A DNA stretch of 39,049 bases, taken from contig JARYLZ010000023.1 in the NCBI GenBank assembly GCA_029907355.1, positions 1-39,049 on the forward strand, read 5' to 3'. The notes under the pieces were generated by a model. It searched no databases and was not told the DNA's origin. It saw only the letters and a list, made by a program, of their open reading frames with translations. This document shows positions 3,660 to 34,351 of this stretch, piece after piece; the stretch's first letter is position 1; every line of letters starts with the position of its first letter. Both the position numbers and the translations under genes were made by a program. Source of the DNA: Bacteroidota bacterium (GTDB taxonomy: Bacteria; Bacteroidota; Ignavibacteria; SZUA-365).

Positions 3660-4484
3660 GTTCCGAACACGGGGAATCGAACCGGTTGCTCCGCGGGAGA
3701 CTGCCTATCCATGCCGACATGAGCACCCGTTCAGGGGATGAGGGCGGTCGGCCCTCTTCCGCCCTTTCCATCACGGTGTTCATAGGTGCATTCGCCGATT
3801 GGTGGAGCCGAGGTATCCTTCCACCTCAAGTCAGATGCCGGTATCATTGTCGATTCACATCACGAGGCGGGAAGAACGACATCCATCTGGTGCCGCTCCA
3901 CACGAGACCGTCTTTTATCCTCTTCGAGAAGGACACGCGGCCCAGTGTGACGAGACAAGGGGAGCACATCTTTACCACGAGTCTCGCGGGTTCGGCCCCT
4001 TCCGTATTTGCGCGTTTCGTATCCGACCGAATGCGGGATTTCAGGAAGCAGCTTTCCGCTGGAGCTGAATGTGTCTTCAGAAGCGGGAGGGATCGCGCCT
4101 TCGATGGATACTCGAAATTCAGGCAACAATACCGGAAGTCACCCGGCTTCCGTTTCCCTTGCCGCTCTTTTGCTCTTGACTGCCGTTCCGTCCATTGCTT
4201 GATGGATTGTTTCCGCCAGCCCCCCATGCCGTAGAGAACGTACTTTTTTCGGGATTTGCTTCGGGGAAGGGCGTCGTGGTGTCGCGGTTTGGATAGCCGG
4301 TGCCGTCATTCGAACGACGGACGACGGTCTCCGCCTGCGCTTGTCTTCCGTCAGTCGAACGCCGATTCAATAGAAATGTGTTTTTTCTAAAACAAATTGT
4401 CGAGTTGACAGGATGGGGGGATCACTAGCGGGGATATGGACCGCGGATCCGCCAGGAAGACATCGAACGGCCATTTCTCGGGAA
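3660..4484. other. Gene-poor stretch between tspO and tRNA-Ile2
   Basis: The whole interval from the tspO stop to the tRNA is about 890 bases, unusually long for this compact window. Long open frames exist on both strands (for example 3206-4234 + and 3844-4227 -), but their products are Arg/Ser/Pro-rich, lack any family motif, have no ribosome site and mostly run through tspO. I see no recognisable degraded gene or RNA fold. The end near 4370-4410 is AT-richer than its surroundings. Confidence 0.5.
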
Positions 4485-4524
4485 GCGAAAAACGAAACAC
4501 TGCGTCCGGTTTCGCGGTGTTTCG
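4485..4524 (-). terminator. Rho-independent terminator of tRNA-Ile2
   Basis: On the minus strand the arms CGAAACAC (4517-4524) and GTGTTTCG (4493-4500) pair. The stem extends inward through a T-G wobble and GCG/CGC to an 8-base loop. TTTTTCGC follows directly (4485-4492). It begins about 25 bases past the tRNA 3' end. Confidence 0.85.
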
Positions 4525-4548
4525 TTCTCCTTCGGGAATAAGTACGCG

Positions 4549-4622
4549 TGGGCCCTGCAGGACTTGAACCTGCGACCAACGGATTATGAGTCCGCCGCTC
4601 TGACCAACTGAGCTAAGGGCCC
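4549..4622 (-). tRNA. tRNA-Ile2 (CAU anticodon, lysidine type)
   Basis: A complete 74-base cloverleaf: acceptor GGGCCCT pairs with AGGGCCC and the discriminator is A; the D arm is AGCTCAGTTGGTCAGAGC; the anticodon stem CGGA/TCCG has loop CTCATAA; the T arm contains GGTTCAAGTCC. The CAT anticodon alone fits Met or Ile2. The acceptor (C4-G69, C5-G68), the start GGGCCCTTAGCTCAG and the TTGGTCGC region closely resemble E. coli ileX. I therefore call it tRNA-Ile2, whose C34 would be converted to lysidine by TilS so that it reads AUA. Elongator tRNA-Met is the alternative. CCA is not encoded. Confidence 0.93.
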
Positions 4623-4636
4623 ATTCATCATGAAAT

Positions 4637-4665
4637 AAGTTAGAGGCAGGGAGGGCGAAAAACAA
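4637..4665 (-). promoter_or_regulatory. Candidate promoter for tRNA-Ile2
   Basis: On the minus strand TTGTTT (4660-4665) and TAACTT (4637-4642) are 17 bases apart. Fourteen bases separate the -10 box from the first tRNA base, which would give a leader of about 7 nt. It lies between the thermonuclease stop and the tRNA, so the tRNA can be transcribed on its own. Confidence 0.5.
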
Positions 4666-4737
4666 TAACATCGCCTGGAGCGCGAAGTGCCCTCATCTTT
4701 GCATGGAAAACCGGTCGTGGTTCGGAGGGACTTTTTC

Positions 4738-7226: not shown

Positions 7227-7298
7227 TCGATTCCTCTCCCCCATAGGGACCCCGAGCATGGAACCCTTTTCCCCTATTTCTCCTACGAGGCGAGGACG

Positions 7299-10115
7299 AT
7301 GAACATACGTTTTCGCTTTACGTCCTCCCTCATGGTCGTTTTCTTCGCCACGGCCCATGGCCAATACCTCTCACCCTATCAATCTCCGCCCGGAATCGAG
7401 TGGAAGGTGATCCGGACGGAGCACTTCGACCTCGTCTTCCCCAATGAAATCGCTAGGGACGCACAACGTGTCGCCTCCACCCTCGAGCACGTTATCGGTC
7501 CCGTTTCGAAAACGTTGAAGCGCACACCCACCCGATTCACCCTCCTCCTCTCGAATCGAACGACGGTATCGAACGGGTACGTGCGGCTCGCGCCGCGTTA
7601 TTCGGAATGGTTCTGCACGCCGCCCCCCTTTTCACTTCTCGGCACCGGCGAGTGGTTCAATCTCCTCGCGTCGCACGAGACCCGCCACCTCGTCCAATTG
7701 GACCGGCTGCGGTCCGGTTTCACGGGTATCGCCTCGCTCCTCTTCGGTGAATCCGCTTGGGCGTTCCTCGTGAATTGGTCCGTCCCCTCGTGGGTTCTCG
7801 AAGGCGATGCAACGGGCATCGAAACGGCCCTGTCATCGAGCGGTCGCGGGCGTATGCCGGATTTCGAACGTGAACTGAGAACACTCGAAATGACCGGCGA
7901 GCGCTACTCGTACGAAAAGGCTTACCTCGGCTCTTTCGCAGACGGGAACATCGACGTGTATAGTCTCGGCTATTTGCTGACGACCTACCTGAAGCGCAAG
8001 TATGGGGCGGATTCGTTCGAGCGCATACTCCGAACGTCCACCCGCTGGTCGTTCCTCCCTTGGGCGTTTTCCATAGCCGCCTATGCCGAAACCGGCGAAA
8101 CGGTGCGGGAAATCTACGAGAACACCTTGGACGAACTACATTCCTTGTGGGCTGCACAGGGGGAAAGATTGCACCCGACGGAAGGACAGCCCCTGAAGCA
8201 TGATTCGAGATCGTGCTGGACGAATTACCGTTACCCGCGTTATCTCTCCGATACATCGCTCGTCGCCCTCAAATGGGGGATGGCGGATATCTCCGGTTTC
8301 GTGCGCCTGTCGCGACGCGAGAAGGAACGACCGATCCGGCTCGCGGCGCTCTACGATGAGCCGTTCGACGCGTCCGGCTCGAAGATCGTCTGGCACGAAC
8401 GCGTGCCGGATTCCCGATGGGGGAAATCGGATGCGACCGTCATCCGCCTTCTCGATGTCGAAACCGGCAGGGAACGCACGGTCGTGTCGGGAGTGAAGTA
8501 CTTCAGCCCGGCGATATCACCCGACGGTCGCCGTATTGCCGCCGTCGAGTTTACGGCCGACCGCTCCTGTGCGCTCGTTCTCCTCGACGCGGAAACCGGT
8601 GCGGTAGTCAAACGGCTCGGATGTTGCAGGGATTTCTACCAGACACCGCGATGGACGCCGGACGGACGCGCTCTCGTCGCAGTCCGGCATGCAGCGAACC
8701 GCGGGAAAGGCGTGGCGCTGTTCGATACATCCGGTGCTCCCCTGCGCGACCTGATCCCGCCGGGCCGTGAAGATGTCTCTCTCCCCGTGATGCACGGACG
8801 CTACCTCGTCTACGGTTCCCCGTACTCGGGAATCGACAACATTTACGTCCTCGACACGATTACCGGCAGGCGCTTGCAAGCGACGTGTTCCCGCTACGGC
8901 GCATATCACCCCGCTGTTTCCCCGGACGGGAAAGCGCTCGCGTACGCCGACTACACGCCGGACGGTTTCGACGTCGTAGAAATCCCATTCGAACCCTCCT
9001 CGTGGAAGCCGCTCGAAGAAGTGGAGGAGAGGGGTGTCCGGTGGTATGATCCGTTGGTCGGCCAGGAATCCGGCGGAGATGTGTTCGTCTCGATCCCCGA
9101 GCGTGTTTACGAAGTGCGTGATTACTCCGCAATCGGCCACCTGCTGAACGTTCACAGTTGGACTCTTCTGCCGGGAGGAGACGAGCACACGTTCGGTGGA
9201 GTGGTCCTGTCCACGAATGTGATGAACACGTTCAGCGTGGATGCCGGTTTCGAGTTCAACACGAGGGAGAAGAACGGGGCCCTCTTCGCGGATGTCTGCT
9301 ACGCCGGTTTGTTCCCGATGTTCGCTGCGGGCGGCGTTTACGGGATGCGAACCTCGACGTACACCGATGAGAACGGTGCACCCCGCTCGTACACGTGGAA
9401 TGAACGGTCGGCTCGACTCGGCATCCGTCTGCCTCTGAATTTTTCTTCAGGGTTATTCGAACGGCATATGACCCTTGATATGGACATCGCACGAACCCTC
9501 GTCTCGCGCAAAACCGTTCCGCTCGCCGGGGAAATCAACGACGGAGCGTTCACACCCGTCACCCTTCGCCTGAATTACGCCGCCGGGTACGGGTGGATAC
9601 GCGACTTCCGCCCGCGCTGGGGTCAGGTCTTCACCGCTGTGTTCCGCCATACACCGCTGGCAAGCGACGATTATCATGCTACGCTCGGGGCGGTCGAGGG
9701 GCATGTGTTCATTCCCGGCCTATTCGATGCCCATAACCTGCATCTCGGGGCGGGATTCCAGCGGCATACGGTCTCGGCGTACCGTTTCCCGCTGGAGATC
9801 ATGTACCCGAGGGGATATGAGCCCCGCTTTCGTGAGACACTCTGGAGTGCGTGCATCGAGTACGCTTTCCCATTATGGTACCCGGATTTCCATCTCTGGT
9901 CCCTCCTGAATGTTCAGCGTGTCCGCGTAAACGTGTTCCACGATATCGGGGAGGGCAGAAACGGTTCGCGGGGTTCCCTGGATCGGTCGATGGGGTTCGA
10001 ACTCACCTCCGATTTCAACCTTTTCGACGTGCGGGCCCTTCTCAACGCCGGTGTGCGAGGGGTGTATCTCATCCGTGAGAAAGTCTGGAAGTGGGGGTTT
10101 GTGTTTGCCCTCTAG
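7299..10115 (+). CDS. Exported metallopeptidase-like / beta-propeller / outer-membrane barrel protein
   Basis: A 938-residue protein with a Sec signal peptide (about residues 1-22, ending ATAHGQ). An N-terminal peptidase-MA-like gluzincin domain has HETRH at residues 126-130 and a probable third ligand Glu168 in PSWVLEGDA. The middle carries TolB/PD40-type propeller blades, with SPDGRRIAAV, TPDGRALVAV and SPDGKALAYA repeats between about residues 370 and 560. The C-terminal ~350 residues alternate hydrophobic and polar residues with many aromatic and Gly positions and end KWGFVFAL, as expected for an outer-membrane beta-barrel. The start has GAGG boxes at 7287-7295. A cell-surface protease or assembly factor is possible; substrate unknown. 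It stands alone between the release-factor-like gene and the symporter. Confidence 0.85.
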   Translation: MNIRFRFTSSLMVVFFATAHGQYLSPYQSPPGIEWKVIRTEHFDLVFPNEIARDAQRVASTLEHVIGPVSKTLKRTPTRFTLLLSNRTTVSNGYVRLAPRYSEWFCTPPPFSLLGTGEWFNLLASHETRHLVQLDRLRSGFTGIASLLFGESAWAFLVNWSVPSWVLEGDATGIETALSSSGRGRMPDFERELRTLEMTGERYSYEKAYLGSFADGNIDVYSLGYLLTTYLKRKYGADSFERILRTSTRWSFLPWAFSIAAYAETGETVREIYENTLDELHSLWAAQGERLHPTEGQPLKHDSRSCWTNYRYPRYLSDTSLVALKWGMADISGFVRLSRREKERPIRLAALYDEPFDASGSKIVWHERVPDSRWGKSDATVIRLLDVETGRERTVVSGVKYFSPAISPDGRRIAAVEFTADRSCALVLLDAETGAVVKRLGCCRDFYQTPRWTPDGRALVAVRHAANRGKGVALFDTSGAPLRDLIPPGREDVSLPVMHGRYLVYGSPYSGIDNIYVLDTITGRRLQATCSRYGAYHPAVSPDGKALAYADYTPDGFDVVEIPFEPSSWKPLEEVEERGVRWYDPLVGQESGGDVFVSIPERVYEVRDYSAIGHLLNVHSWTLLPGGDEHTFGGVVLSTNVMNTFSVDAGFEFNTREKNGALFADVCYAGLFPMFAAGGVYGMRTSTYTDENGAPRSYTWNERSARLGIRLPLNFSSGLFERHMTLDMDIARTLVSRKTVPLAGEINDGAFTPVTLRLNYAAGYGWIRDFRPRWGQVFTAVFRHTPLASDDYHATLGAVEGHVFIPGLFDAHNLHLGAGFQRHTVSAYRFPLEIMYPRGYEPRFRETLWSACIEYAFPLWYPDFHLWSLLNVQRVRVNVFHDIGEGRNGSRGSLDRSMGFELTSDFNLFDVRALLNAGVRGVYLIREKVWKWGFVFAL

Positions 10116-12303: not shown

Positions 12304-13380
12304 TCAACGGACGACGTGCAACGGTGTGGCGAAGGACCCTCCCGTGTGCGTGATCCGGAGGAAATACGAACCCGGCGCCAGCATGCCGAGCGGGAAGCGG
12401 ATATCGTGCGATCCGGGCGTCAGCTCGCGTTCTATGCGCACGCCCGTCACGCGCCCGGCGGCGTCGATGACATCGAGGGAAACACGCGTCTCGCGCTCCG
12501 TCCGGAGATGGATGACCGATGCGCCCTGTGCCGGGTTCGGGCTGAGGCCGCGGAACTCGAGCCCACCGATGACCGGACCCGGTTTACCCGTCGCCGTGAC
12601 GTTCCCGTCGATGACGGCGAGAATCATGATATCGAAGTCTGCGGGGGCGCCGCTGAAGTTGAGAAGCGTCGCGAAGTTGCCTGCAACGAGCTGGTTGTTC
12701 TGGACTGTGATGTAACAGGCGCGCTGTTCGCCGCGACCGTCGCCCTGGTTGTTCGACCAGATCATGAACCCATCGTCGTTATCGGACAGGCGACGGGTCC
12801 TAACGGTGAGGACGAACGCGTTCGTGACCGTCACCTGCGGTTGTTCCATCGGGATGTATGTGAAAATCTGCCTCGACGTCGACGTGTCCACCTCGTCCAA
12901 CAGGAAACGGCCGAAGCCGAGCGTCTGTCCTGTCGGGAGACCGTTGGTTTCGTTCGCGGCCCACACGTTGACGACGGACGTGTCCGGCTCCCCAGCAACG
13001 TGCACCCACGAGACACCAAGGAGCGCACCGAGAACGTTGGCCGTCCCCTGCATCGGGAATTTCTGACCTGCGAAGAGGTACAGCGTGTTTGCGCCGACTG
13101 CCGGGTACACGTTATTGTTTGCGTCCCGATACGTGTAGTTCCGGAACTGTGTGGAACGCTTGAAATGGTCGTCGAGCGTGTCGACGGCGAGAAAGGCCCC
13201 CGGCATACTCTCGCGCACAGTGGTCCCTCCCGCGTTGGGCAGGCATGGGTCGCCGGGGAGAAGGGAAACGTTGTTGTCCGGCATGGCGATGCCGGACACG
13301 GTGAACGTTGCGGGGTCGAAAGATTGACCGTATGCACTCACGGCGACGAGGAAAACGAGAAGAGTAACGACTCGGTTCAT
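12304..13380 (-). CDS. Secreted protein with type IX secretion sorting domain
   Basis: A 358-residue exported protein. A signal peptide occupies residues 1-19 (VVTLLVFLVAVSAYGQ). The central region (about 20-265) is beta-rich with many Asn/Asp/Thr and no motif I recognise. The last ~80 residues are a type A type IX (Por) C-terminal sorting domain: GLSPNPAQG at its start, then strands such as VSLDVIDAAGRV, GSHDIRFPL and LAPGSYFLRIT. The domain sends the protein through the T9SS pore to the cell surface or medium. GGAG lies 6 bases before the ATG. The gene is single, with its own terminator, and divergent from suhB. This is the best taxonomic clue in the window (FCB group). Confidence 0.88.
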   Translation of the reverse strand: MNRVVTLLVFLVAVSAYGQSFDPATFTVSGIAMPDNNVSLLPGDPCLPNAGGTTVRESMPGAFLAVDTLDDHFKRSTQFRNYTYRDANNNVYPAVGANTLYLFAGQKFPMQGTANVLGALLGVSWVHVAGEPDTSVVNVWAANETNGLPTGQTLGFGRFLLDEVDTSTSRQIFTYIPMEQPQVTVTNAFVLTVRTRRLSDNDDGFMIWSNNQGDGRGEQRACYITVQNNQLVAGNFATLLNFSGAPADFDIMILAVIDGNVTATGKPGPVIGGLEFRGLSPNPAQGASVIHLRTERETRVSLDVIDAAGRVTGVRIERELTPGSHDIRFPLGMLAPGSYFLRITHTGGSFATPLHVVR

Positions 13381-20078: not shown

Positions 20079-22913
20079 TCAGACGATCCATGTCGTTCCG
20101 CATAGTGTCTTATACGGACAAGATCGGCAGACCTTGTCCGGTTCGTGGCCGATATCCTGCGGGGGGAGGAACGGAATCGCAGGGTCGCACATCTCCTTTA
20201 TCATCGCCGTGATGGTACGCTCCACGACGGTCAGAACGTCGGCGGGGTTTTCTCCGTGCCGGTACAGGGGTTCCTCGCACTTGGGCGAGAGCTCTCGCTC
20301 GTTCAAGCGCAGGATCGCCGGTTGAATGGACGCGGCCTCCATCCCCGACACCCGGGAGAGAAGGATGGCATACAACGGTAATTGGAAGGATGTCACCCCT
20401 TCCCGCCAACTCGCGGGAGAGTCCGGGTCGATCTGCGGGAATCGGTTCCGCTCGTCGTTTTTCGATCCGCCGGTCTTGTAATCGATCACCCTGATCGTAC
20501 CGTCGCGCCGCTCGATGCGGTCGATGACGGCTTGGAAGAGGTAGCCGTTCCATTCCGTCTTGACCGTTCGTTCCGTACCGAGAATGACAATGTCGTGTTC
20601 TTCCACCAGCGGTGCGAGGTACTTAACCACGTAATCCTCCATGCGCTGTTGCGCATGCATGTGCATGAACACAACGCCGCCGACCCTGTGTTTGGTCATG
20701 GCATCGAAGTGTTTCGTGACGAGTGCCCTGATGCGCTCCGTGTTCAAGTCGGCTTTCCTCAAGGGCCGTTGGACCCTCGCATGGGCTCGGTGGTACTCGT
20801 GCAATACCGCGTGGATGATCATCCCGAGAGTTGCAGAGTCGATCCCTTCAGCGGGACTTTCCGTTTCAGAGAGCCGAAGGAGATAGCGGAAATAGAACCG
20901 GCGGGGGCATGCGAGGTACGTATCCAGCGCCGTCGAACTAAAGCACATCCTTTCGATGGTGCCGACCATGTCCGGCGTTTTCTCTATCGGACCGGGCAAT
21001 CTGTCGACGAGGTTCATCGACGGAGTCACGTGGCGAATGAAGCGCTCTTCATTCGTGGTCCCGTTCCCTAACTGTTGTCTCCAGAGATCCTCTTCCACGT
21101 AACGGCTGCGTTCCCTTCCCTTCACATCCGAGAAGAAGTAGTGGATTTCACGGGCGCCGGCCCGGAGTTGGAACAGTGTGTAGGTCGTCTCCCTGTTTTC
21201 ATGTCTCTTCAGCGGCAACCCGATCTTCCCGCGGACGATGTCCGGCAGGAGTGAACCCGGAGGCACGCCGGGGAGGAGATCATCCGAAGCATCCAGGATG
21301 ATCACGCGATCGAAATGCAAGCACCGCGTTTCGGAATGGCTGAGAATCTGCAAGCCTTCGAGCGGTGTGCCCGGAAATGTATGGACTTGCGGGAGGAACA
21401 TCCCGCGGAACCATTGCCTGTACTCGGGGATACCGTTCAGGGACACTTTCCCGAGAGCCGAGTCCTTGAGACGGTTGAACTCGGACACGAATTTTTCCAA
21501 GTATTCCCGGAACCGTCGGTTCCTCCCGACGGGGCTGTGATCGGCAAGCCAGAGGAGCAGGTCGATCATCGCGGCCGCGAAATCCCCGAGGTCGACCATA
21601 TTCTGGAATCTGCCCAGGGTGTGTGCATGGATTCCCTTGAGGTGTATGCGGAGACTCTCCTCGGTGAATTCGCCGGGACCGTGGGGGAGGAGGGCAAGCG
21701 CTTTCTCGAACACCGAGCTGTTCCCCTCCAGTTCCTCGAGGCGGAAGCGCAGGAGACGGTTTTTCACGAAGAAATCCCGTTCGATGACCTGGAAGAGAAT
21801 GCGTGTGACATCCGATCGTCCTCCACTGATTTCCACGTTCTTGATGTAGGGGTGCAGGGAAAAGCGAAGGTAATCGCTCGGCGTGAAAAACCCGTCGACC
21901 GCCGCCTCAACCGTATCGAGGATCCGAAGGAGGAAGGTGAACAGGGGGGTTCTGCTCAGCGGGTAGCCGATCGAGATATTGTGCGGGAGACCCTCGAGCA
22001 CCGGGAGGAGGAAACGCGTCACCGGCTGGAGAAGATCCGGACCCGGCAGGAGAACGAGCGTCCTCTCATCCGGCGGTGCCCCTTCTTCTCTCCATGTTCT
22101 CAACAAACCTGCTGCAGCGAACACTTGGTCATGAATCGTCGGCGCAGCCGTGAAAGCGACGTTCTCGCACGTCGAGGCCGGATCCGCCGGTTCTCCCCGG
22201 TCAACACCCAGTTTTTCGCAAATGTCTTCGATGTACGGTCCGTTCAGCAGGAGGCACGATGAGCCTTCGTGTGCGATGAGCGTCCGGAGGAGGGAAGCCG
22301 CCGCCTGGTCGATGGAAAAGAATCCCGCGACGACGAATCGCTCCTCCGGACCGTATTCCCATGCTTGGGCGGCTTGTGCGACACGGACGGAGCGAAGGGC
22401 ACGCGTCGAGAAACCACGCCGTTCCACTTCCTTGTAGAACGGCTCGTAGAGTTCCGCCAGCTCGCGTGCACTGCCCCACGCATCGAGGGAGGCTGCTTCG
22501 CGCAGGCGTTCGATCGAGGCGCCGGCCGCAAGGATTTGCTCGAGGAGATGGAAAACCTGCAAGGCGGAATCCAGATCCGTCTTCGAGAGTTCATGGGATG
22601 AAATACGCTTGAGATCGAGCTTCTCCCAGAGAGAGACGATGATCGCCACGGCTTCATACGCGTCGATCTCGGGTTCGGAACGCCCGAGGCGCTCGGTATA
22701 CCATGCTTCGATGAGCGATTCGTGCGTGTGGATGCGGGGAGGCATATACGCGGACCCGAATCTTTCCCCCAGTTTTTTTCGGAGGAAGTGGGCGGGTCGT
22801 TTGTTGGGGAAGATCACCGTCGTCCGCGGCAGCTCGGAACCGCTGTCGACAATTATTCGAGCGACCTCTTCGATGAGGTCGGCGCCTGGAGGGAGAATTC
22901 GCCTGTCGCTCAT
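20079..22913 (-). CDS. addB: AddB-like helicase-nuclease subunit
   Basis: A 944-residue protein with an inactive UvrD-like helicase fold and a C-terminal PD-(D/E)XK nuclease. Nuclease residues are seen in AVIDRIERR and VIDYKTGGSK. The Fe-S cluster cysteines of the AddB type are present: one before the nuclease (YLACPRRFYFRY) and three at the end (KVCRSCPYKTLCG). With AddA it processes double-strand breaks to Chi-regulated 3' ends for RecA. The open frame extends to 22976, but ATG at 22911-22913 is chosen because it overlaps the AddA stop (ATGA) and starts MSDRRILPPG. No Walker A lysine is evident at the N-terminus. The assignment rests on partner, order and motifs; overall divergence from Bacillus AddB is large. 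Confidence 0.88.
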   Translation of the reverse strand: MSDRRILPPGADLIEEVARIIVDSGSELPRTTVIFPNKRPAHFLRKKLGERFGSAYMPPRIHTHESLIEAWYTERLGRSEPEIDAYEAVAIIVSLWEKLDLKRISSHELSKTDLDSALQVFHLLEQILAAGASIERLREAASLDAWGSARELAELYEPFYKEVERRGFSTRALRSVRVAQAAQAWEYGPEERFVVAGFFSIDQAAASLLRTLIAHEGSSCLLLNGPYIEDICEKLGVDRGEPADPASTCENVAFTAAPTIHDQVFAAAGLLRTWREEGAPPDERTLVLLPGPDLLQPVTRFLLPVLEGLPHNISIGYPLSRTPLFTFLLRILDTVEAAVDGFFTPSDYLRFSLHPYIKNVEISGGRSDVTRILFQVIERDFFVKNRLLRFRLEELEGNSSVFEKALALLPHGPGEFTEESLRIHLKGIHAHTLGRFQNMVDLGDFAAAMIDLLLWLADHSPVGRNRRFREYLEKFVSEFNRLKDSALGKVSLNGIPEYRQWFRGMFLPQVHTFPGTPLEGLQILSHSETRCLHFDRVIILDASDDLLPGVPPGSLLPDIVRGKIGLPLKRHENRETTYTLFQLRAGAREIHYFFSDVKGRERSRYVEEDLWRQQLGNGTTNEERFIRHVTPSMNLVDRLPGPIEKTPDMVGTIERMCFSSTALDTYLACPRRFYFRYLLRLSETESPAEGIDSATLGMIIHAVLHEYHRAHARVQRPLRKADLNTERIRALVTKHFDAMTKHRVGGVVFMHMHAQQRMEDYVVKYLAPLVEEHDIVILGTERTVKTEWNGYLFQAVIDRIERRDGTIRVIDYKTGGSKNDERNRFPQIDPDSPASWREGVTSFQLPLYAILLSRVSGMEAASIQPAILRLNERELSPKCEEPLYRHGENPADVLTVVERTITAMIKEMCDPAIPFLPPQDIGHEPDKVCRSCPYKTLCGTTWIV

Positions 22914-25900
22914 GGCACTCTCCGGACGATCCTGACGAGCCCTCTGTCCACATATGCGATGCGCCCCTCGACGCATCGGCCGGGGAAGACTTCATCGGCG
23001 AGATCCATGTACATTCGTACCTGTTCTTCGTACTCCTCGTGGTCTTCCTCTCCGCCTGATTTGAAGTCGACGACGAGTAAGCGGTCGGCATCGACCACGA
23101 GGCGGTCCAGCCGGTGAAGAGCCCCATCCTTGCCGGCGAGTTCCAGTTCGCAGTAGACCTTCGTCCCGGCACTTTTCGCAAACAGCTCGCGAGCTTCCGG
23201 TTTCTCCAGGAACATTCGGACCGTGTCCGCGAGGTCGGGGAAACGCTCTAGCTCGCTCTTCGAAACGGGGCAATGCGTCACTGCCCGCTGGACTGCCTCT
23301 TGCGGCGTTTCGTCGCTCGCGATCGACTCGATCCGTTCGAAGAGCGCGTGCATCAATACACCCCGTTTCTTTTCGAGGTAACCGAGCTTTTTCGAGTCCT
23401 CCTCAATCGCAACAGGCACACATGTCCGTGCGCAATGTATCCCTCGCCCAATGGGAGGTGTCTCGTCTCCGCGGCATTTTTTTTCTTCCCATGCCGGTGC
23501 CGGAGGACGATTTTGCGTTGCCGGGAAAAGATGCGCGGGGAGGAAACAGAGAGGTGGGGCGTTTTCGGGCCCCTCCTCTGTTCGCGGGACGGCCACCACG
23601 TGCATTTCGTGTTTCGCCCTTGTCAGTGCGACGTAAAGCAGGTTCAACTCGTCGGTGCGCAGTTTCCGTTCTTCCTCTTCGTAACGTGTCTTGAGATCGG
23701 ACAAATGTTTGAGAAACGTCTTGTTGGTATCGAGAAGCAGTATGCCGCTGTCCGTCTGTTCGAACAGCCGTTTCGGCGTGAAACTGCCGAAGGGATATTG
23801 GAGGAGGATCGTGACGGGGAAATCGAGTCCTTTCGCCTTGTGGATCGTCATCAGCGTCACGGCGTCCACACCTGTCGAAGGCTGAACGGCCCACGTTTCC
23901 TCGTCCCCAGCGTCCTCGACGGAATCGAGGAAATCGGCGAGATCGTTTCGCCCGTCCCGTTCCAGGATAATCGGCGTCTCGAGAAGCCGGGTCAATGCGG
24001 CTTCTTCGTACGGAAAACGCTCATATACGCGGAAGACCGCGAATGCATCGCAGAGGAGGTCGTAAACAGGTGCGTAACCGGCCTGGGCAAAGAGCCTCTG
24101 AAACGAGGCGTCCCAGATCCCGGGGTATGCCTCTCGGAACCAGGTGTAGAGGGGTCGATACGATCCGCTGTTCCGTACGGATAGGATCTCTGCCGCGAGG
24201 GTGTGGGTCTCGAGACCGTATTCATCCCGCATGGTTGAACCGAATACATTCCCGAGAAGGAAAGCGGCAAACGCCAGGTCGTCTGCGGGCGAGTGAAGGA
24301 AACGGAGGAGCGAGATCATTTCCGCCGTGACGGTTCGGTAGCGGGCGTCGAGGCTGCTGTGCGAGAGAAATGGGATACCGGTGACGGAAAGCCGACCGCT
24401 GAACGAGACGACGTCGGCGTTCGTCCGCATGAGGACGGCAAGGTCTTTCCAGCGGTACCCGCGCTTCCTGCAGTCTCGAATGATACCGATGATCGTATCA
24501 TACTCAGCGATCTCATCGGAAGGGGGAACGAAATGGATTTCTACATGGCCTTTACCCCGGTTTTCATCGGTCGGCGATTGACCGCATTCCGTCAAACCGG
24601 ACGCTTTCGCGGCGGCAATCCACTCTTCGTCTGCCGTCCGCATGGAGAACGTTTCTCGAACGCATTCGAGGATTCGTTCACCGCTTCGGTGATTCTTCGG
24701 GAGGACGTGCAGGGTGAATTTCGCCGAGGGGAACACATTCGACGTCTCGAGCGATTTCATGATCCGCCAGTCGGCGTCGCGGAACGCATAGATCGACTGC
24801 TTCTTATCGCCGACGACAAAGACGCTGCCGTCGCGGGACAACGCTTCTTCGAGAAGCGGTTGCAGGGCGGCCCACTGGACCGGTGAGGTGTCCTGGAATT
24901 CGTCGATGAAGTAATGCGATACCACCTCGCCGAGACGCAGGTAGATTTCAGGAATCGTCCCCTTGTGCAGGAAACCTTGGAGAATCGAATAGACATCATT
25001 GAGAGACAGAATCCCCTCGAGGCGTCGCATGTTCACGATTTCATCGTTCAATCGCTTCCAAGCGGCTACGTATGGGTATTTGTTCGTTCGAGCGAGGACG
25101 GCGAAGTAATGGATCACTGCCCGGCGGAGTTCCGAAGTGGGCTCGGCGAGGGCATCGATCACGAGGGAATATCGGTCATTCGGCGTCTTTCCCTTTTTCA
25201 CGACAGCATTTGCCTCGGGGATTACCCTATTCAGGAAGACTGATGGACCGTTCTTTCTTACATCCTCGCGGAGTTTCTGAAAATTGAGGTTGAGTTCCAG
25301 ACCGCTTTTTTCGGCCGATTCGGCAAGACGTTCCACGGCTTCGCGCACACGACGTTCCGCTTTTTTTCTTTCCGGGACCCTATCCGTCGTGTCCAAGGGA
25401 TAGGGCAGAGTCGTGAGGTATGCATAGAGTTCCGATACGTTTTTACGGATGGTATCGAACGGTCTCCAATCGAAGGTGCGGCGTTCCATGGCTTCAAAGA
25501 GGTGCATGAAGAGGTCCGCATCTGCGCTGCCTTCGGTGATGTTCCTCTCGAGCCGGTCGAACGCCGCGTCGGTGAGCAGGGCGGACCGGAGTACGATGCG
25601 GGGCGAAGGGGAGAGACCGAATTCGCGGGCCGAAGCCTGAAAGAGGCTGACGGCGAAGGAATCGATGGTCGTGAGTCGGAAATCGGAGTATCCCTGCAGG
25701 ATTTCCCCGATCAGGTCGTGTGCGCGAGCCGATGCGCGAACCGCATCAATGTCCACCCACTGCGCCAGTTCCGCCTGCGTGTCGGCGTCGCCCAAAGCGA
25801 TCTTTTTCAGGATGCCCAGCACGCGTTGCTTCATCTCCCCCGCAGCGTTTCTCGTGAACGTAATGGCGAGAATTTCGCGGAAGGTATTGTGAGGGACATC

Positions 25901-26020
25901 CTCGGCGAGCAGGAGCCGAACGATCCGCCAAGCGAGTTGATGGGTTTTTCCCGATCCCGCCGAAGCCGAGACGATGGTAAAAGATGGGAACGTCAGCCGG
26001 GATGCGCGTTCTTCGCTCAT
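22910..26020 (-). CDS. addA: AddA-like UvrD-family helicase-nuclease
   Basis: A 1036-residue SF1 helicase with a C-terminal nuclease. Motif I is SASAGSGKT (Lys25), motif II IDEFQDTSPVQW, motif III VGDKKQSIYAFRDAD, motif V TIHKAKGLDFPV and motif VI LLYVALTRAKHEM. The final ~130 residues hold a RecB-type PD-(D/E)XK domain with LDRLVVDADRLLVVDFKSGG. It provides 3'-5' translocation and one of the two nuclease sites of AddAB. The ATG at 26018-26020 has no clear Shine-Dalgarno. A 17-base dyad lies 112 bases upstream. It is the first gene of the two-gene operon. RecB is the alternative name, but no RecC or RecD is nearby. Confidence 0.94.
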   Translation of the reverse strand: MSEERASRLTFPSFTIVSASAGSGKTHQLAWRIVRLLLAEDVPHNTFREILAITFTRNAAGEMKQRVLGILKKIALGDADTQAELAQWVDIDAVRASARAHDLIGEILQGYSDFRLTTIDSFAVSLFQASAREFGLSPSPRIVLRSALLTDAAFDRLERNITEGSADADLFMHLFEAMERRTFDWRPFDTIRKNVSELYAYLTTLPYPLDTTDRVPERKKAERRVREAVERLAESAEKSGLELNLNFQKLREDVRKNGPSVFLNRVIPEANAVVKKGKTPNDRYSLVIDALAEPTSELRRAVIHYFAVLARTNKYPYVAAWKRLNDEIVNMRRLEGILSLNDVYSILQGFLHKGTIPEIYLRLGEVVSHYFIDEFQDTSPVQWAALQPLLEEALSRDGSVFVVGDKKQSIYAFRDADWRIMKSLETSNVFPSAKFTLHVLPKNHRSGERILECVRETFSMRTADEEWIAAAKASGLTECGQSPTDENRGKGHVEIHFVPPSDEIAEYDTIIGIIRDCRKRGYRWKDLAVLMRTNADVVSFSGRLSVTGIPFLSHSSLDARYRTVTAEMISLLRFLHSPADDLAFAAFLLGNVFGSTMRDEYGLETHTLAAEILSVRNSGSYRPLYTWFREAYPGIWDASFQRLFAQAGYAPVYDLLCDAFAVFRVYERFPYEEAALTRLLETPIILERDGRNDLADFLDSVEDAGDEETWAVQPSTGVDAVTLMTIHKAKGLDFPVTILLQYPFGSFTPKRLFEQTDSGILLLDTNKTFLKHLSDLKTRYEEEERKLRTDELNLLYVALTRAKHEMHVVAVPRTEEGPENAPPLCFLPAHLFPATQNRPPAPAWEEKKCRGDETPPIGRGIHCARTCVPVAIEEDSKKLGYLEKKRGVLMHALFERIESIASDETPQEAVQRAVTHCPVSKSELERFPDLADTVRMFLEKPEARELFAKSAGTKVYCELELAGKDGALHRLDRLVVDADRLLVVDFKSGGEEDHEEYEEQVRMYMDLADEVFPGRCVEGRIAYVDRGLVRIVRRVP

Positions 26021-33649: not shown

Positions 33650-34351
33650 TCAATGACCCATGGACAGGCGGTCCGCGAGAAACGGCGGCAGGCCTGCGGA
33701 GCGGATTTTTCTCGCCGTGATGTGTATCGGGTACGAAACGCGCCTGTTTTCGTATGTTCCGGCTACCGTGTCAAGGATCCCGTAACTCGCGCGGGGGTCA
33801 CCGTCCCGTGGTTGGCCGACGCTGCCGGGGTTGATGAGGAATCGGTTCTCCGTGTTGTATTTCCTCACGTTCGGCTCGAGGGGGAACAATCCGGCGATGT
33901 GCGAGTGCCCGATGAAGCACAAGCGTTCGGAAAACGCTTCCGCCTGCGTCAGGGCTTCGAATCGACCCATCACGTAATCCCACCTTTCCGGATGTTTCGG
34001 AGCGGCATGGACGAATCGGCTTCCCTCGAAGCTCGTCGTGTATGGCAGTTGCCGTATCCATGCCCGTTCTTCTTCCGAGAGGTGCCGGATCGTCCATTCT
34101 ATCGCGTGGCGGGCAATGGCCGAAAACCATTCCCGCGTTGCGGGGTTGAACGTCGCCTCCTCATGGTTCCCCATCAGCACGAGCGGTACTCTCCGACGGA
34201 TGAGAGAAAGACATGCGGAAGGGTCTGCGCCGTATCCGATGATGTCCCCGAGGCAGACGATGCGGTCGATACCTAGGGCATCCATGTCTTCGAAGACGCG
34301 CATCAGCGCTTCGAGGTTCCCGTGTATATCGGAGATGATGGCGATGAGCAT
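33650..34351 (-). CDS. Calcineurin-like metallophosphoesterase (YfcE/MJ0936-like)
   Basis: A 233-residue phosphoesterase. Metal-binding motifs are ISDIHGN (residues 7-13), LGDIIGYG, LMGNHEE, VHAAP and IGHSHIAG, followed by LINPGSVGQPRDGDPRASYGIL, typical of the YfcE/MJ0936-type branch. It probably hydrolyses phosphodiesters in the cytoplasm. The frame is open to 34705, but ATG 34351 starts the conserved MLIAIISDIHGN directly; the upstream part is atypical. No good ribosome site is seen. It is divergent from the OstA-like gene and lies upstream of tRNA-Gln on the same strand. Confidence 0.92.
   Translation of the reverse strand: MLIAIISDIHGNLEALMRVFEDMDALGIDRIVCLGDIIGYGADPSACLSLIRRRVPLVLMGNHEEATFNPATREWFSAIARHAIEWTIRHLSEEERAWIRQLPYTTSFEGSRFVHAAPKHPERWDYVMGRFEALTQAEAFSERLCFIGHSHIAGLFPLEPNVRKYNTENRFLINPGSVGQPRDGDPRASYGILDTVAGTYENRRVSYPIHITARKIRSAGLPPFLADRLSMGH

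Follow-up and report, generated by a model that had tools for sequence, protein, structure and literature searches.

A distinct branch, poorly covered by annotation, of a previously catalogued propeller-barrel architecture with an invariant peptidase-like site in Bacteroidota

Results

Domain layout of the encoded protein

The window, i.e. the whole stretch of 39,049 nucleotides from a Bacteroidota bacterium that was analysed here, encodes at positions 7299-10115 of the plus strand a protein of 938 residues, labelled P0001 in the following. A Shine-Dalgarno-like GAGG is located upstream of its start, at 7287-7290. Relatives were sorted into P0001's own branch (group A), mostly longer relatives (group B) and a third group (group C), and the features assigned by eye, by profile and by comparison to these groups are the following.

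7299..10115, plus strand: whole gene, 938 residues and stop; single open frame with ATG start
7299..7361, plus strand: signal peptide spanning residues 1 to about 21, with two Arg, a hydrophobic core and ...AHG/Q, lipobox Cys absent; read by eye
7362..8198, plus strand: domain of gluzincin-like (Peptidase MA) type, spanning roughly residues 22-300; identified by comparing its profile to those of the N domains in group B
7674..7688, plus strand: HETRH, residues 126-130, two predicted zinc His and the predicted catalytic Glu127; from conservation in group A
7800..7811, plus strand: EGDA, residues 168-171, with E168 as predicted third zinc ligand; in 34/34 group A sequences, E168 being aligned to the Glu of EG in group B
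7821..7853, plus strand: E175-T176 and G182-R-G-R185, a group A signature adjoining the site; from conservation in group A
8220..8993, plus strand: TolB-like beta-propeller with some six blades, roughly residues 308-565; from Pfam, NCBIfam, solved TolB chains, AlphaFold and Foldseek
9216..10112, plus strand: C-terminal outer-membrane barrel, Omp85-like, about residues 640-938; from profile homology in steps and beta periodicity
9810..9818, plus strand: RGY at residues 838-840, which may be equivalent to the loop-6 motif in Omp85; R in 27, G in 33 and Y in 24 of 34 group A sequences

A preliminary description of this DNA had proposed that a single 938-residue chain combines a signal peptide, an HETRH...E site, TolB-like blades and a C-terminal beta-barrel. 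The frame agrees exactly, the signal peptide is visible by eye, with similar leaders at the N-termini of full-length homologues, and the three-domain reading (peptidase-like, propeller, barrel) is upheld, i.e. the fusion is real and not an artefact. As HETRH occupies residues 126-130, the earlier numbering of E127 is correct, and the accompanying Glu is found at 168, within EGDA. The domain search that had been suggested was borne out in part, as Pfam recovers PD40 in P0001 and detects neither Peptidase_MA nor a barrel family. Since PD40 alone among the expected domains is detected, the propeller is certain, and the peptidase-like and barrel regions required other evidence. Pfam matches to TruB_C and THOC3 were rejected, as they fall inside the propeller and below their cut-offs.

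A TolB-like propeller

The propeller of P0001 is TolB-like. PD40 matches at 5e-08 (Pfam), TIGR02800 (TolB) at 5.7e-13 over residues 377-565 (NCBIfam), and solved TolB chains at best at 1.6e-07. The propeller is homologous to TolB, the equivalog cut-off not being reached (48.6 bits vs 343.15), and TolB is not known to have a peptidase domain or a barrel. The full-length AlphaFold model, computed from a three-sequence alignment, has a mean pLDDT of 46.6 and is usable only for the propeller, being confident only at about residues 308-565 (ten-residue means mostly 60-88, one block 43). There, 23 strands at 310-563 fit six blades, and Foldseek retrieves TolB (1c5k) as the best solved match at 1.2e-12, among many other propellers. 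Within group A, TIGR02800 is matched by 29 of the 34 members and PD40 by 15.

Distribution and branch

Some match to P0001 is present in 58 of the 61 genomes near the window (own included). Besides P0001's own genome, near-full-length homologues were found in these 61 only at L004 (46%) and L005 (39%), the many other matches in nearby genomes covering about residues 10-560, the propeller or the N domain. Homology over nearly the full length also extends to a Flammeovirgaceae MAG (L001, 32% identical to P0001) and a Bacteroidales MAG (L002, 31% in the best segment). Using the barrel profile (A4), group A was detected in 41 of the 395 genomes of a phylum-wide sample and in 3 of 391 genomes of the window's class, own included in both counts. 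From the 41 phylum genomes, 29 contributed loci besides the window's own, and the other 11 were not used. The resulting group comprises 34 members, 29 of which are cut at the N-terminus and start at P0001 residue 29 to 133. In a midpoint-rooted tree of these 34, P0001 groups with L004 and L005 with a support of 0.999. Two scans of viral contigs returned no relative.

For group B, 27 loci yielded 25 usable frames, of which 18 were aligned; three of the 18 are only 938-942 residues long. For group C, 15 of 18 loci were kept by a filter requiring HExxH, so that their site counts prove nothing.

The peptidase-like domain and its invariant site

H126, E127 and H130 are present in 33 of the 34 group A sequences, the remaining one (L088) starting downstream of the motif, and EGDA (E168-G-D-A171) is retained in all 34. 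The same holds for E175, T176, G182, R183 and G184, with R185 in 33/34, at identities to P0001 as low as 23%. The conservation of this site goes beyond chance, since 29 of the 34 members were found via the barrel profile and not via the motif, and since the homology of the N domain survives masking of the motif. Specifically, comparison of the N-domain profiles of groups A and B gives 6.5e-29 (7.1e-29 with a deeper alignment), and still 5.8e-22 with the eleven motif columns masked, vs 0.097 for a reversed profile. The corresponding values for groups A and C are 6.6e-11, 1.5e-07 (masked) and 0.011 (reversed). All 18 aligned group B proteins match Peptidase_MA_2 (PF13485) at E up to 0.1, with the H, E, H and E of the site invariant across them. 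According to these sequence comparisons, the N domain of P0001 is homologous, over its whole length, to Peptidase_MA_2 proteins.

In group A itself, PF13485 is matched by 0/5 full-length members at E up to 1 and by 0/34 members, mostly cut, at E up to 0.1. Weak matches were obtained to DUF6782, a putative metallopeptidase (1/34, 0.079), and to a flagellinolysin model (4/34, best 0.0069). A profile search of solved structures with the group B N domain gave no match. The AlphaFold model of the N domain is of low confidence (mean pLDDT 44.9) and places HETRH and E168 each in a predicted helix. The invariance of the site suggests that the chemistry is probably retained.

The site also bears on another possible role, in which barrel and propeller would assist insertion or folding of outer-membrane proteins in the manner of a BamA-BamB fusion, the metal site being structural or minor. 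Such a role was proposed for propeller-plus-Omp85 proteins by Heinz and Lithgow (PMC4104836), and the resemblance of the P0001 propeller to TolB is compatible with it. However, of the 21 invariant columns in group A, 14 are located in the N domain, the propeller having 2 and the barrel 5, a distribution that a minor role explains poorly. Moreover, POTRA families are detected in none of the 34 members of group A (E up to 0.1), nor in the 5 full-length ones at E up to 1. We consider an assembly factor unlikely.

The barrel and its link to Omp85

The C-terminal 300 residues display amphipathic beta periodicity, with a beta-moment of z 3.1 vs column shuffles, as compared to -0.3 for the propeller and -1.1 for the N domain. 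The AlphaFold model contains 13 low-confidence strands in this region, and counting of amphipathic-strand peaks reveals only 7 clear ones, so that no strand number is claimed. The barrel of the preliminary description is supported indirectly, through this periodicity and profile homology and without a Pfam match.

Comparison of the barrels of groups A and B gives 1.3e-07 with five sequences and 5.9e-11 with 34, over 310 of 349 columns, vs 0.36 and 0.53 for the reversed controls. The barrels of groups B and C match each other (3.5e-10), and reach Omp85 proteins of the sampled genomes at 2.2e-12 and 8.3e-16, respectively, whereas the TonB-dependent receptor controls remain at 0.074 or higher. 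The values for Omp85 and the TonB receptors refer to comparison sets cleaned of wrong frames, with 29 Omp85 proteins (L048 removed, judged by eye) and 13 TonB receptors (L075 and L076 removed); cleaning strengthened the links of groups B and C to Omp85, and group A stayed within noise. Directly compared to Omp85, the group A barrel gives 0.0017-0.016, and 0.0051-0.066 with the cleaned sets, which is within noise since one of the reversed controls, A5 compared to its own reversal, gave a value of 0.0032. The comparison of group A to group C (0.013) is not significant.

Pfam Omp85 is matched by 3 of the 18 group B members, and PF01103 (Omp85) by 0/34 in group A at E up to 0.1. No other Pfam barrel family is matched by the 34 group A members, OEP appearing in 1/5 full-length members at 0.23. 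A profile search of solved chains with the group A barrel returned no match. With the group B barrel, the best solved structures were steroid/androgen receptors from 0.23, TamA being among them at 0.25; these matches are chance-like and were discarded.

As the direct and curated comparisons give no link of their own, the barrel is called Omp85-like via the chain of homology: judged from the profiles, group A appears linked to the longer relatives strongly through its N domain and moderately through its barrel, and those in turn to Omp85. The absence of a Pfam barrel family and the noise level of the direct comparison would also be compatible with a beta-rich domain or outer-membrane barrel of another kind, unrelated to Omp85. 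We regard this as improbable, since it conflicts with the A-B comparison, which covers most of the columns and vanishes on reversal, and with the fact that groups B and C reach Omp85 and not the TonB receptors.

Within the Omp85-like barrel, RGY at 838-840 may correspond to the loop-6 motif, (V)RG(F/Y), and is followed by five strands in the weak full-chain AlphaFold model. Many outer-membrane proteins end in Phe; a C-terminal Phe is found in only 21 of the 34 group A members.

Longer relatives in the same genome

The genome of P0001 encodes three longer relatives (L120, L121 and L122). Like P0001, each has HExxH and the Glu of WxxEG, followed by a propeller and then a barrel. Unlike P0001, they comprise 991-1137 residues (with a mechanical choice of start), have HEYTH or HELVH instead of HExRH, lack the EGDAxxxET...GRGR signature and differ in barrel sequence. 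L122 scores above the Pfam curated cut-offs for Peptidase_MA_2 (59.6; cut-off 32.4), PD40 (74; 20.9) and Omp85 (42; 24). L121 exceeds those for PD40 and Omp85, with Peptidase_MA_2 just below at 31. L120 exceeds that for PD40 only of the three (Peptidase_MA_2 27.3, Omp85 unmatched) and shares 62% identity across 1021 residues with a protein of group B. Counting P0001, the genome hence encodes at least four proteins of this kind, so that P0001 is not a one-off fusion and its layout is ordinary for this genome. The frames at L121:1122-4097 and L122:1848-5195 are peptidase-like, propeller and Omp85 proteins with HELVH sites.

Gene surroundings

P0001 is neighbored by genes for an SNase, an HD-domain protein, a NUDIX protein, an RF-1-domain protein and a sodium:neurotransmitter-type symporter, none pointing to quality control. 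A conserved operon was sought at 13 group A loci, using mechanically picked frames, and no neighbor family occurs at more than 3 of the 13, suggesting that P0001 probably works alone. G001 and the window have HD-domain and RF-1-type genes in common, and L115 and L118 share a neighbor block.

Further features of the window were noted. At 20079-26020, minus strand, a 965-residue frame with a PDDEXK_1 nuclease domain adjoins, with slight overlap, a 1036-residue UvrD-type helicase that carries a C-terminal nuclease match, a pair that from its layout we presume to be AddAB-like. A secreted-looking protein of 358 residues (12304-13380, minus strand) matches Por_Secre_tail with 24.5 bits, below the cut-off of 27, which hints at a type IX secretion system of the organism. 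The 94-residue open frame at 4387-4671 (minus strand) overlaps the tRNA-Met gene at 4548-4622 and is for this reason probably not a gene. At 34097-34351, minus strand, Metallophos (PF00149), a phosphoesterase family, is matched with 52.4 bits within a 353-residue frame.

Discussion

Based on the profile comparisons and the distribution of relatives, P0001 is a separate, poorly annotated branch of an architecture that is catalogued but uncharacterised. Propeller-plus-Omp85 proteins were catalogued as WD40-Omp85 by Heinz and Lithgow in 2014, and a BamA-BamB-like role was suggested for them (PMC4104836). The earlier statement that the combination matches no characterised protein is in agreement with our literature searches, but the architecture as such was already on record. 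WD40-Omp85 proteins resemble P0001 in the N-terminal TolB-like propeller and the absence of POTRA domains, and have a C-terminal Omp85-type barrel where P0001 has an Omp85-like one. In contrast, the Pfam Omp85 model does not capture the group A barrel, which has diverged too far, and P0001 has a peptidase-like domain; in the main text of PMC4104836, the word 'peptidase' occurs 0 times and WD40-Omp85 appears with no described peptidase domain. A full-text literature search for the domain combination, with most subscription papers and all preprints outside its scope, identified nothing closer than WD40-Omp85. The novelty lies in the branch, which is separate and recognised only in part by the domain databases used. 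In a 2024 paper, the metalloprotease, WD40 and patatin Omp85 subfamilies are described as not well characterised (PMC11116518). The 'metalloprotease' Omp85 group of PMC4104836 rests on PF00149, the Pfam name of which is Metallophos, and this 'Metallo' group may represent a phosphoesterase rather than a protease fusion.

For catalysis, zinc binding, topology and substrate of P0001 we infer the following mechanism, to which we attach about even confidence. P0001 would be an outer-membrane-anchored metalloprotease that faces the periplasm and cleaves envelope proteins roughly like BepA. The protein would be exported via its signal peptide, the C-terminal Omp85-like barrel would insert into the outer membrane, and the N-terminal part, by analogy with Omp85 proteins, would face the periplasm. 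On that side, a zinc peptidase of the gluzincin type (H126, E127, H130 and E168) would precede the TolB-like propeller, which probably binds or gates substrates. Its substrates would most likely be outer-membrane or periplasmic proteins, cleaved close to the membrane in the course of their quality control or maturation. The process would be comparable to that of E. coli BepA at the BAM machine, except that P0001 would have its protease covalently joined to a barrel of its own. The precedent is BepA, an HExxH zinc protease of the periplasm that works on outer-membrane proteins (PMC7950410), a likeness that on the side of P0001 concerns a predicted function. Unlike P0001, BepA (M48) combines its M48 domain with TPR and has no barrel of its own (PMC7950410), and P0001 has no M48 match in Pfam.

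The location of the N-terminal part deserves separate consideration, as the preliminary description had left open whether the protein is surface-anchored or periplasm-facing. Omp85 proteins generally keep their N-terminal domains in the periplasm, and the Omp85-like barrel argues for a periplasmic N-terminal part; the periplasm-facing option fits, while surface anchoring found no support in the present analysis. If peptidase and propeller were nonetheless outside, having passed through the barrel or with the barrel inverted, P0001 would cleave extracellular proteins. A parallel is offered by PlpD (patatin-Omp85), in which an enzyme domain lies ahead of an Omp85 barrel, much as the peptidase-like domain precedes the Omp85-like barrel in P0001. 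PlpD has patatin and POTRA domains where P0001 has the gluzincin-like domain and the propeller (PMC11116518), and in the 2014 view it delivers its enzyme domain to the surface (PMC4104836). The later structural paper argues against exit of the N-terminal domain through a PlpD-type barrel and deems such later translocation energetically and structurally highly unfavourable (PMC11116518). Furthermore, no secretion-tail domain is matched in P0001 by Pfam. Altogether, we consider a surface protease unlikely, and maintain the periplasm-facing metalloprotease as the preferred reading.

In conclusion, a conserved predicted zinc-peptidase site precedes the propeller in at least some propeller-barrel proteins, a feature that the 2014 main text leaves unmentioned (PMC4104836). 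H126, E127, H130 and E168 represent exact mutation targets that would separate a protease from an assembly role. Omp85 proteins in which other domains replace POTRA belong to the less thoroughly characterised proteins of the outer membrane (PMC11116518). We suggest, as a tentative and rather doubtful extension, that group A may constitute a family of outer-membrane metalloproteases that has so far escaped annotation and is scattered over one phylum. Each member would be self-contained, uniting substrate receptor (the propeller), protease and membrane pore or gate in one chain. If so, cleavage of envelope proteins at the membrane would not require a separate protease bound to BAM.
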